A stretch of DNA of 48,736 nucleotides from Alphaproteobacteria bacterium (GTDB taxonomy: Bacteria; Pseudomonadota; Alphaproteobacteria; ATCC43930; CGMCC-115725), in contig JASHNY010000028.1 of NCBI GenBank assembly GCA_030041385.1, positions 1 to 48,736 on the forward strand. Direction: 5' to 3'. Below the pieces are notes generated by a model that saw only the letters and a program-made list of their open reading frames with translations, ran no database searches and was not told the DNA's origin. How positions within the stretch are numbered: position 1 is the stretch's first letter; each line of letters opens with the position of its first letter. A program made the translations under genes and the position numbers. Positions 22,618-27,031 of this stretch are shown piece after piece.

Positions 22618-24240
22618 TCACGACAGTGCGGCGAAGAAGTCGTTGCCCTTGTCGTCGATGACGATAAAGGCGGGGAAATCGACGACCTCGATGCGCCAGA
22701 TCGCCTCCATGCCGAGCTCCGGATATTCGATCAGCTCGACCTTCTTGATGCAGTCCTGCGCCAGCCGCGCCGCCGCACCGCCAATCGAGCCGAGATAGAA
22801 CCCGCCGTGCTTCTTGCAGGCGGCGCGCACCTCGCCGCCGCGATTGCCCTTGGCCAGCGTGACGAAGCTGCCGCCCGCTGCCATGAACGCATCGACGTAG
22901 GAATCCATGCGCCCGGCCGTGGTCGGCCCGAACGAGCCCGAGGCATAGCCCGACGGCGTCTTCGCCGGGCCGGCATAGTAGATCGGATGGTCCTTGACGT
23001 ATTGCGGCAGGCCGTCGCCGCGGTCGAGCCGTTCCTTGAGGCGCGCATGGGCGATGTCGCGGGCGACGATCAATGTGCCCGAAAGGCTGAGCCGCGTCTT
23101 GATCGGGTATCGCGACAAGGTCTGGCGGATCTCGGCCATCGGCCGCGTCAGGTCGATCGGCACCACATCGCCCGCGAGCGAGGCGGCGTCGATCTCGGGC
23201 AGGAAGCGGGCCGGCTCGGTTTCGAGTTGTTCGAGGAAGACGCCGTCAGCGGTGATCTTGCCGAGGATCTGGCGGTCGGCCGAGCACGACACCCCGATGC
23301 CGATCGGCAGGCTGGCGCCATGCCGCGGCAGGCGAATGACGCGCACGTCATGGCAGAAATACTTGCCGCCGAACTGGGCGCCGATGCCGAGATTGCGCGT
23401 CAGCCCCAGCACTTCCTGTTCGAATTCGCGGTCGCGATAGGCCTGGCCGTATTTGTTGCCGGCATCAGGCAGGGTGTCGAGATAGCGGCAGCTCGCCAGC
23501 TTCACGGTCTTCAACGTCAGTTCGGCCGAAGTGCCGCCGATCACGATCGCCAGGTGATAGGGCGGGCAGGCCGCGGTGCCGAGGGTACGGATCTTTTCGT
23601 CGAGAAAGGCAATGAGCGATTTGGGGTTCAGCACCGCCTTGGTCTGCTGATAGAGAAAGCTCTTGTTGGCGGAGCCGCCGCCCTTGGCGATGAACAGGAA
23701 TTTGTACGCCTCGCCCGGCTCGGCATAGAGCTCGATCTGGGCCGGCAGATTGTCGCCGGTGTTGACCTCGTCGTACATCGACAGCGGCGCCACCTGGCTG
23801 TAGCGAAGGTTGGTATCGGTATAGGTGCGGCGAATGCCGGCAGAGATCGCCGCGGCGTCGTCGGCGCCGGTCCACACGTGCTGGCCCTTTTTGCCCATGA
23901 CGATCGCGGTGCCGGTATCCTGGCACATCGGCAATACCTTGCCGGCGGCGATATTGGCGTTTTTCAACAGGTCGAAGGCGACGAAACGGTCGTTGGCCGA
24001 GGCTTCCGGGTCGTCGAGGATTGCGGCGAGCGATGCGAGATGCCCCGGCCGCAGCAGGTGTGCGCAATCGACAAACGCCTCGCGCGCCAGCAGGGTCAGC
24101 GCCTCGGGCGCGACCTTGATTACACGCTCGCCGGCGAAATCGGCGGCCGCAACATAATCGCCGCCGAGCTTGCGGTAGGGCGTGTCATCGTCGCTCAGCG
24201 GAAACAGCTCGTGAAAAGGCAGATCGCCGGTTTGGCTCAT
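22618..24240 (-). CDS. Fumarate hydratase class I ([4Fe-4S])
   Basis: A 540-residue iron-sulfur fumarase of the TCA cycle. The three cluster cysteines are Cys106 (PMCQDTGTA), Cys225 (AACPPYHLA) and Cys319 ([13 protein letters not shown]). The alpha-domain block [18 protein letters not shown] and the beta-domain end [20 protein letters not shown] fit class I (FumA type, both domains fused). The ATG at 24240 gives the standard N terminus; the frame is open further left but with unlikely content. The stop lies 31 bases before the ECF sigma factor on the same strand. Confidence 0.95.
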
Positions 24241-24376
24241 CCTCGCGCTCCCGATAACATGGCGCCGCAGCATCATTGTTTCGGCGGCGCCGTCAAGCGG
24301 CGGGCGGCAGCCATGGGCAACCCGCCGCCCCGGCCTGACGAGCGATGGCGGGCGGCGAACATCCGGGCGGCAGGCG

Positions 24377-25105
24377 ATGACGCAAAACATTTACGACGAC
24401 GACGGGTTCTTTGCCGGCTACAGCCGGCTGCCCCGCTCGGTTGAGGGGCTCGATGGCGCCCCCGAATGGCCGGTCTTGCGGGCGATGCTGCCGGACCTGC
24501 GCGGCCGCCGCGTGGTCGATCTCGGCTGCGGCTTCGGCTGGTTCTGCCGGTGGGCATTGCAGCAGGGCGCGGCATACGTGCTCGGCCTCGACGTTTCCGA
24601 GAAGATGCTGGCGCGCGCCCGCGCCGATGGCGGCGGCGCCGCGATCGGCTATCGGCGCGCCGACATGGAGCGGCTCGAACTGCCGGAGGCGCCGTTCGAC
24701 CTCGCCTACAGCTCGCTGGCCCTGCATTATCTCGAACATCTCGACCGCGCGATGGCGGCGGTGCACCGTGCCCTGGTTCCCGGCGGCCGCTTCGTGTTCT
24801 CGGTGGAGCATCCGATCTTCACGGCGCCCGCGGCGCCGGGCTGGGTCGCGGGCGAGGGCGGGCGCAAGACGTGGCCGGTCGACCGTTATCTCGACGAAGG
24901 GCCGCGCTCGACCAACTGGCTGGCCGAAGGTGTCATCAAGCACCACCGCACCGTGGCGACCTATCTTAACCTGCTGATCAAAAGCGGCTTTACCATTCTG
25001 CGGATCGAGGAGTGGGGCCCGACCCCGGAGCAGATTGCGGCGCAACCGGCCTGGGCCGATGAGGTCGAGCGCCCGCCGTTTCTGCTGGTCGCGGCCACGC
25101 GGTAA
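24377..25105 (+). CDS. Class I SAM-dependent methyltransferase
   Basis: A 242-residue methyltransferase with the SAM motif [20 protein letters not shown] (about 46-65), the acidic strand [17 protein letters not shown], and post-motifs [17 protein letters not shown] and [17 protein letters not shown]. This resembles the UbiE/Methyltransf_11 small-molecule group. The substrate is unknown: neighbours (fumarase and sspB) give no hint. The ATG at 24377 starts [20 protein letters not shown], the usual beginning of this subgroup. Divergent from fumarase with 136 bases between starts. Confidence 0.88.
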
Positions 25106-25121: not shown

Positions 25122-25583
25122 CTATCGCTTTCTGAAATTGTCGAGGGTGACGACCTCGGCGCCGCCGGTTTCCTTCTGCGGCGCGGCGGCGACCGTGGCC
25201 GGCGCCTCGTCCGGCTCCGCCGCGACCGCGGGAGCGGCAAATTCGAGCGCAAAATTGACCGAAGGATCGGCAAAGCTCTTTATTGCCGCGTAGGGGATGG
25301 TCAGCCGCTCCGGCTGGCGCTGAAAGCTCAGCGTCACGGAAAAGGCCTCGTCGCCGATGTCGAGATCCCAGAACTGATGCTGGATCACGATCGTCATTTC
25401 TTCGGGGAATTTGGCGAGGAGATGCGGCGGCAAGCCGACGCCCGGCTCGCGCGTGCCAAAGCCGATGTAGAAATGGTGGTCGCCCGGCAGCCCGGTGCGC
25501 GCCACCCGCCGCAGCGCGTCGCGCACGACGCTGCGCAGCGCGCGCTCGATCATCTTATCGTACTGGAACAGGTCTTGCGGCAT
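25122..25583 (-). CDS. sspB: SspB-type ClpXP adaptor for SsrA-tagged proteins
   Basis: A 153-residue alpha-type SspB. The N-terminal domain (LFQYDKMIERALRSVVRDALRR, then HHFYIGFGTREPGVGLPPHL, MTIVIQHQFWDLDI) binds the SsrA tag; FSVTLSFQRQPERLTIPYAAIKSFADPSVNFALEF completes the fold. A flexible Ala-rich linker follows, ending in EVVTLDNFRKR, which matches the C-terminal motif that docks on ClpX. It delivers tmRNA-tagged proteins to ClpXP. The tmRNA gene lies just upstream on the same strand. Confidence 0.93.
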   Translation of the reverse strand: MPQDLFQYDKMIERALRSVVRDALRRVARTGLPGDHHFYIGFGTREPGVGLPPHLLAKFPEEMTIVIQHQFWDLDIGDEAFSVTLSFQRQPERLTIPYAAIKSFADPSVNFALEFAAPAVAAEPDEAPATVAAAPQKETGGAEVVTLDNFRKR

Positions 25584-25639
25584 CGCCGTTCCTCAAGCCC
25601 GCTTCTCCGGAAGGAAGTGAGGGGCTTCTGTTGCCCGGT

Positions 25640-25924
25640 GCCCCTCGAACCGCGAGTTGCTCTAGGCTATGACCCCGCTAAGGGTTAGGCCGCAAGCGCC
25701 TCAGGTGCGAAGTTATCGTTCGCAGCTAAGTTTTGACCCGATAACGGCGGTATCATGCCGGGCGACGGACTTACCTTTACCACGCGCGTCGAGCCTGTTT
25801 CGCCCCCATAGGCTGCCGGTCCCGATTCGCCGGGCCGGCGGAAATGGTGGAGGCGCCGGGTACTGCCCCCGGGTCCGCTACGCTTATTCCATAAGCCGTG
25901 TATCGCCATAGTCGGTTGCCCGAC
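25640..25924 (-). ncRNA. ssrA: tmRNA (ssrA), circularly permuted two-piece type
   Basis: On the minus strand the acceptor piece comes first, ending in CGCCTCC-A-CCA at 25854-25845, with a 5-bp T-stem (CCGGG/CCCGG) and the loop GGCAGTA. After an intervening segment of 37 bases the coding piece starts with GGGGGCG at 25807, which pairs with CGCCTCC to form the acceptor stem, including the G3-U70 wobble that identifies alanine. The tag reading frame runs 25726-25685 and encodes AANDNFAPEALAA then TAA. The permuted order is the hallmark of alphaproteobacterial tmRNA. The outer ends (about 25924 and 25640) are estimates. Confidence 0.93.
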
Positions 25925-25930
25925 CGCGAA

Positions 25931-25959
25931 GATATAGGATGGGAACCGCCAAGGTGCAA
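25931..25959 (-). promoter_or_regulatory. Promoter of ssrA
   Basis: On the minus strand TTGCAC (25959-25954) is followed after exactly 17 bases by TATATC (25936-25931). This is close to the sigma70 consensus and would start transcription about 7 bases further on, just upstream of the tmRNA acceptor piece. Confidence 0.75.
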
Positions 25960-25998
25960 TCGCGGCGCGTCCTCTGTGACGGCCGCCACGCGGCCTTC

Positions 25999-26092: not shown

Positions 26093-27031
26093 ATGGGGCT
26101 GACCGACGAGCAGCGCGGCGAGATTGCGGCGGAGCGCGGCGAAAGCCGGTCGACGCGGCGGGTTACCGTGCCGGCGCTCGAAGAGATCCTGTACGAGGCG
26201 CTGCCGGTGCTCGACCACGGCTTCGTGCGGGTCGTCGATTACATGGGCGACGATGGCGCGGTCGTACAGGCGGCGCGAGTGTCGTATGGGCGGGGCACCA
26301 GGCGGGTCAGCGAAGACCGCGGCCTGATCAATTATCTGATGCGGCACCGCCACACCACGCCGTTCGAGATGTGCGAGATCAAGTATCACGTCAAATTGCC
26401 GATCTTCGTCGCCCGGCAGTGGATTCGCCACCGCACCGCAAACGTCAACGAGTACTCGGCCCGTTATTCGATCCTCGACAACGAATTCTACATTCCGGCA
26501 CCCGAACATCTGGCAGCCCAGGCCTCGACCAACCGCCAGGGCCGCGGCGCAGTGCTCGAAGGCGAGGCGGCGCGGCACGTGCTCGGCCTGCTTCGCGACG
26601 ACGCGGAGCGCGCCTATGCCGATTACAGCGAAATGCTCAACGTGGACGAGGCCGGTGCGCCGCGCGATCCGAGCTGGCCGGGCTTAGCCCGCGAGTTGGC
26701 CCGCATGAATTTGTCGCTGAATTTCTACACCCAGTGGTACTGGAAGACCAACCTGCACAATCTGATGCATTTCCTTAGCTTGCGGGCGGATGCTCATGCG
26801 CAATACGAGATCCGTGCCTATGCGGAGGCGATGCTCGGCACGCTTGAACGCTGGGTGCCGATGACCCATGCGGCGTTTCTCGAATACCGGATGAACGCGG
26901 CGACGATTTCGGCCGCGGGGCTGCGGGTGATCCGCCGCTTGCTCGCCGGCGAGGCGGTCGACCGGCAATCGAGCGGCCTCAGCCCGCGGGAATGGCGCGA
27001 GCTGATGGCCGTGATCGGGCGCGACGCCTAG
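26093..27031 (+). CDS. thyX: Flavin-dependent thymidylate synthase
   Basis: A 312-residue FAD-dependent enzyme that makes dTMP from dUMP with methylene-tetrahydrofolate and NADPH. The family signature RHRx7S is [11 protein letters not shown] at residues 112-122. The conserved block [29 protein letters not shown] and [21 protein letters not shown] support it. The C terminus is normal for alphaproteobacterial ThyX. The ATG at 26093 follows GGATGGAGCC, at a usual distance for the ribosome; an open frame further upstream crosses the intergenic repeat and is not expected to be translated. Confidence 0.95.

Follow-up and report, generated by a model that had tools for sequence, protein, structure and literature searches.

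The gene for tmRNA, ssrA, and the gene for SspB, the ClpXP adaptor that binds the tag encoded by tmRNA, lie side by side in a 48,736-nucleotide stretch of alphaproteobacterial DNA (contig JASHNY010000028.1, positions 1 to 48,736), which is called the window here. The question raised by this locus is whether the RNA that writes the tag and the protein that reads it are merely neighbours on the chromosome or are produced from one transcription unit, and whether the arrangement belongs to this genome or to the class as a whole.

The ssrA gene was identified by a match of 249.3 bits to the Rfam family alpha_tmRNA (RF01849; E 2.5e-71, gathering cut-off 50) and the sspB gene by a match of 142.7 bits to Pfam PF04386 (cut-off 27). 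The order that an earlier note on this DNA had read from the letters, a permuted ssrA followed by sspB on the same strand, is borne out by these matches (Table 1). The permuted layout, in which the acceptor piece precedes the coding piece, is confirmed by a second Rfam match (RF04321, tmRNA_permuted, 148.2 bits at 25685-25907) and by the tag found with ARAGORN, which places the tmRNA at 25594-25937. The tag read by ARAGORN is ANDNFAPEALAA; adding the alanine with which the tmRNA is charged gives AANDNFAPEALAA, the tag reported in the note. Its reading frame starts with ANDN, ends with AA and contains a single adaptor motif. The two promoter elements of ssrA were found where the note had placed them, and the columns of the -10 element fall within the alpha_tmRNA consensus of Rfam, although a generic sigma-70 scan of the window did not flag this promoter. 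The whole genome contains one tmRNA match and one SspB match. The gene shares its permuted layout, promoter position, tag type and 3' hairpin with the two-piece tmRNA of Caulobacter and Sinorhizobium (RF01849). In the RNA itself no difference from theirs was seen, and the interest lies in the gene that comes after it.

Table 1. Features of the ssrA-sspB locus and its surroundings, in window coordinates.
Feature	Position	Strand	Basis
ssrA, permuted alphaproteobacterial tmRNA gene	25616-25963	minus	Rfam RF01849 match extent, promoter region included
ssrA promoter: -35 TTGCAC (25959-25954), -10 TATATC (25936-25931)	25931-25959	minus	sequence
tmRNA acceptor piece, CCA at end, limits approximate	25845-25907	minus	RF04321 alignment, sequence
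Tag reading frame, ANDNFAPEALAA + stop	25685-25723	minus	ARAGORN, sequence
3' hairpin of tmRNA coding piece, GAGGGGC...GCCCCTC (25646-25640 with 25625-25619)	25619-25646	minus	sequence
ssrA-sspB spacer, 32 nt, with GAGGAA Shine-Dalgarno-like site at 25594-25589	25584-25615	minus	sequence
sspB (SspB-alpha), ClpXP adaptor	25122-25583	minus	Pfam PF04386, similarity to 2qas/2nys/2qaz
thyX, divergent neighbour upstream of ssrA (context only)	26093-27031	plus	TIGR02170, 204.4 bits
SAM-dependent methyltransferase, convergent with sspB (context)	24377-25105	plus	PF08241, 82.1 bits
Class I fumarate hydratase (context)	22618-24390	minus	PF05681 + PF05683

The Pfam match covers residues 11-135 of SspB and extends over the substrate-binding domain; none of the NCBIfam profiles matched the window protein. 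The closest chains of solved structure are 2qas, 2nys and 2qaz, the first and last of which are presumably SspB-alpha of Caulobacter crescentus. The alignment with 2qas spans residues 2-135 at 143.4 bits, and the likeness is one of sequence. The window protein ends in EVVTLDNFRKR, which we take to be a putative short ClpX-binding motif on a flexible tail. Most relatives have a C-terminus of the same LDxFRK type: the pattern [ILV]xLDxFR[KR] was found in 101 of the 130 relatives taken from the best-scoring 150 of 218 genomes. As far as can be judged from the letters, both ssrA and sspB carry the defining features of well-described families.

The junction of the two genes is short. The distance from the end of the tmRNA to the sspB start codon is 32 nt by the Rfam limits and 10 nt by those of ARAGORN, so that the 50-60 bases given in the note were too many. 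The hairpin at the 3' end of the coding piece is followed by ACTTCCTTCCGG, also given as ACTTCCTTCC, with no U-tract. Neither of the two scans found a terminator-like site on the minus strand in the gap, in agreement with the note, which had seen no strong terminator between the genes; the two terminator-like hits returned by the generic scan are both on the plus strand, and 1.1 are expected by chance. The top promoter-like site before sspB in the window is no better than those in shuffled sequences (p 0.19). At the level of sequence the locus has three features of an operon, namely a common strand, a short gap and a conserved order.

Conservation of the order was examined in 231 alphaproteobacterial genomes with a completeness of at least 90%, of which 213 have an SspB match and 221 a tmRNA match. 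The tmRNA was usable in 218; the 13 genomes dropped were ten without a match, two under the cut-off (G085 and G105) and one with a partial match (G143). SspB at E<=0.001 is absent from ten of the 218 tmRNA-bearing genomes, two of which (G152 and G194) have a very weak match with E of about 0.1; three SspB rows with one stop in frame (G045, G107 and G116) were retained. Both genes could be placed in 208 genomes. In 180 of these sspB is downstream of the tmRNA on the same strand and contig, and in 148, carrying 91 of the 121 family labels, it follows within 300 nt on the same strand, where distances run to the point at which the SspB profile match begins, roughly 30 nt beyond the start codon, and the counts are raw genome counts, uncorrected for phylogeny. 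The note had proposed looking for the adjacency in related genomes, and these counts establish it there. Five of the 180 have sspB more than 10 kb away and are not neighbours; together with four genomes in which the genes are on opposite strands and one in which sspB is upstream, they make up the 10 of 208 in which the genes share a contig and are not adjacent. In another 23 of the 208 the genes are on different contigs, which has little meaning for draft genomes.

The window's own family presents the same picture. A tmRNA match is present in 33 of its 39 genomes and sspB is beside the tmRNA at 28 of the 30 loci examined, the two exceptions being a tmRNA at a contig edge (L013) and a locus without an SspB hit in the flank (L020). 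A set of 80 named loci was chosen by SspB similarity and is therefore excluded from the rates; 68 of these loci have a tmRNA by ARAGORN, always on the same strand as sspB. Chance placement in genomes of 1-6 Mb would, by our estimate, produce such an arrangement in about one case in ten thousand. The pairing is neither due to chance nor peculiar to the source genome. It is a widely conserved combination of known parts.

Gap lengths, promoters and terminators were studied in detail in the best-scoring 150 of the 218 tmRNA genomes, using regions that ran from roughly 2.5 kb before the tmRNA to 3 kb after it, and further where SspB had already been placed on the contig. SspB was found in 130 of the 150 regions, downstream and on the same strand in every one. 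The start codon of sspB was taken as the one closest to where the profile begins, a choice that may be wrong in some genomes. Measured from the tmRNA to this codon, the gap is at most 300 nt in 108 regions, at most 100 nt in 78 and at most 40 nt in 30, the last group coming from 23 families; the shortest gap is 8 nt and the median 85 nt. A search for the tmRNA end by a fixed 3' motif was dropped because it lost 51 of 157 loci, and the gap statistics are consequently based on the Rfam ends. Six genomes (G041, G157, G239, G190, G249 and G060) have sspB on the same strand 3.6-8 kb downstream, with other sequence between the genes.

The 32-nt gap without a U-tract and without a promoter- or terminator-like signal in the window, together with the order and spacing conserved across the class sample, suggests that ssrA and sspB probably form one transcription unit and that this unit is very widespread in Alphaproteobacteria. 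From the identity, order, spacing and class-wide conservation of the genes, which are observed, we infer read-through, cutting and co-regulation, and the sequence of events would be as follows. RNA polymerase would start at the single ssrA promoter and yield the permuted tmRNA precursor, pass the 3' hairpin and run on into sspB. Nucleases would excise the two tmRNA pieces, leaving an sspB message with a short leader. The tag-writing RNA (AANDN...) and the tag-reading adaptor SspB-alpha would thus be governed by the same promoter, and SspB-alpha would deliver the tagged proteins to ClpXP. The note's idea of co-expression by read-through is supported in part. Since tmRNA greatly exceeds the level to be expected of an adaptor message, differing stabilities of the products would be needed if both are the output of one promoter. 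The genomes in which the two genes are apart, or on different contigs, indicate that sspB can be maintained without a preceding ssrA.

The main rival is that ssrA and sspB are neighbours only: transcription of the tmRNA would stop at the hairpin that closes it, and sspB would have a promoter of its own, placed either within the tmRNA body or between the genes. This is rather unlikely on the whole, and likeliest where the gaps are longer. The generic sigma-70 and terminator scan, which called no promoter and is of little use in DNA as GC-rich as this, was set aside in favour of a matrix derived from the ssrA promoters of the class itself. The matrix recognises the ssrA-type element only. Each family was tested with its own members left out and scored against block-shuffled sequence, p<=0.05 being taken as a detection. 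As a positive control, the ssrA promoter was detected in 101 of the 130 genomes with a median score of 12.91, the ssrA scores being slightly favoured, even with the tested family omitted, by a matrix made from best-of-region matches. In the group with gaps of at most 40 nt the same control detected the ssrA promoter in 18 of 30 genomes and missed it in 12. An ssrA-type promoter before sspB was detected in none of these 30 genomes (0/30), so that the separate sspB promoter which the earlier note had named as counter-evidence was not detected, as an ssrA-type element, in the closest-spaced genomes. There, such a promoter would have room only inside the tmRNA, and there is no sign of it. At wider spacing promoter-like sites before sspB do occur: 5/58 at gaps of 41-120 nt, 4/20 at 121-300 nt and 3/22 above 300 nt, or 12/130 overall (10/130 with an earlier version of the matrix), against 4/130 in a negative control inside sspB. 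The sites at gaps above 120 nt favour a promoter of its own for sspB, as does the minority of genomes in which the genes are apart, while the closest-spaced genomes speak against it, and so does the window, which shows neither a promoter nor a terminator signal.

Terminators also lend the separate-promoter reading some weight. A hairpin with six or more T among the next eight letters was taken as a terminator-like site. Of the 130 genomes with sspB downstream, 16 have such a site between the genes, compared with about 2.2 expected from shuffles, the scan covering the first 110 nt after the tmRNA where the gap exceeds 300 nt. Six of the 16 sites belong to the group with gaps of at most 40 nt. 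In genomes without sspB near the tmRNA, such a site was found in 4 of 20 (0.6 expected). The excess over expectation makes partial termination in some lineages likely and argues against read-through being complete in general; termination at the end of the tmRNA may be incomplete, and in certain lineages it may be what normally happens. The ten positions after the hairpin contain on average 3.86 T where sspB follows within 300 nt (n=108) and 4.40 in the rest (n=42; p 0.04), a difference that is small and decides nothing.

The gene order is also kept where thyX was not found upstream, which is a further point against a mere neighbourhood of ssrA and sspB. A divergent thyX gene, encoding a flavin-dependent thymidylate synthase, was found in the stretch before ssrA in 56 of the best-scoring 150 of 218 genomes, whereas sspB lies within 2.5 kb downstream of the tmRNA in 123 of the same 150. 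The steadier neighbour of tmRNA is therefore sspB, although part of the difference will be due to genomes that have no thyX and to the thyX survey being a single-sequence search, hence less sensitive than the search for SspB. A phage origin of the locus was considered and rejected, since the eight matching phage records match over thyX only.

With chance set aside, the alternative to function as the cause of the conserved pairing is shared descent. The ancestral gene order might have been retained neutrally and without benefit, which would be compatible with co-transcription of the two genes. Descent by itself conserves order, and the counts above carry no correction for it; the spread of the pairing within 300 nt over three quarters of the family labels, and a strand and order that stay unchanged even at gaps of 0.5-8 kb (22 of the 130 fetched regions with sspB), nevertheless make neutral retention improbable. 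Very doubtful, finally, is a refinement of the single unit in which trimming of the tmRNA 3' end and translation of sspB would be mutually exclusive and sspB output would report the precursor that escapes processing: gaps down to 8 nt would press the sspB ribosome site against the 3' hairpin, but the median gap leaves room for a cut between the two.

If ssrA and sspB are a working pair, the tag is expected to change where the adaptor has been lost. Among 205 SspB-bearing genomes with a readable tag, 184 have a tag starting with ANDN, as against 3 of the 10 genomes that lack SspB (Fisher p 2.8e-5, uncorrected for descent), and three further tags in SspB-bearing genomes were unreadable. The altered tags of the other seven SspB-less genomes (L199, L225, L246, L266, L318, L357 and L384) are exemplified by AKSDYAEYALAA and ANESYAIAA. 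All seven genomes, which carry four family labels, are at most 2.0 Mb in size, so that genome size confounds the association; the contrast persists in weaker form among genomes of at most 2.0 Mb, where an ANDN start is present in 46 of 64 with SspB and in 2 of 9 without it (Fisher p 0.006, likewise uncorrected for descent). ARAGORN may have misread the tags that diverge most. The association is consistent with the pairing and is no proof of it. At several loci of small genomes, L331, L178 and L183 among them, the tags are long, basic or diverged (for example AKTTKARRVTAANRNTVIGVRVAA) and sspB adjoins ssrA; the tags of these three keep an internal A-N-x-N.

Some tags contain ANDN, or its CNDN or SNDN variant, twice (L088, L090, L094, L099, L105, L338, L367, L379 and L343). 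They are 20-24 residues long, with the copies 7-9 residues apart and in frame, as in ANDNAQFVAANDNFVVEGDIAIAA (L088 and L379, perhaps one organism), ANDNNQFVAANDNSFVGEAIAA (L094) and ANDNVALVAANDNNVVAVRAAA (L090). ARAGORN begins these tags at the first copy and for L338 offers the second copy too. The copies mostly differ in their codons, which makes them unlike fresh repeats of DNA. SspB is a dimer, and a double motif could therefore bind to both of its halves simultaneously. Two-motif tags are also listed for Anaplasmataceae, so doubled tags may be known already. A broader and more tentative idea is that writer RNA and reader adaptor might come from one precursor throughout the class, their ratio being set by processing of the 3' end, and that tag and adaptor might evolve in a linked manner, of which the altered tags in most SspB-less genomes and the tandem-motif tags would be signs.

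In Escherichia coli, SspB is likewise a ClpXP adaptor and its gene belongs to the sspA-sspB operon; to our knowledge it is not located beside ssrA. The adjacency of ssrA and sspB is not stated in the titles and abstract openings that were searched. Lessner et al. 2007, reportedly the primary SspB-alpha paper, was outside this coverage, and the adjacency may be in print. The word sspB does not occur in the main text of PMC4287350, PMC4117421, PMC3616915 and PMC12403871. In Sinorhizobium meliloti the tmRNA has been reported to exist as two stable pieces, with a precursor that is unstable (PMC2873474). This fits the cutting of a longer RNA, and the accessible portion of that paper makes no mention of sspB.

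Other bacteria also have a tmRNA gene next to that of a protein it works with, in the smpB-ssrA neighbourhood; there the partner is SmpB, whereas in the window it is the proteolytic adaptor. According to PMC2245857, the smpB-ssrA neighbourhood is termed functionally associated, and in S. meliloti smpB is 1.1 Mb from ssrA. The same source (Ulve et al. 2007) describes both genes flanking the tmRNA as conserved in the alphaproteobacteria compared and a functional link as uncertain. To find the adaptor of the tag itself as one of the flanking genes would bear on that uncertain link. If ssrA and sspB are one unit, the amounts of the tag-writing RNA and of the adaptor would co-vary over much of the class, and the rescue of ribosomes would be linked to the speed with which the tagged products are disposed of.
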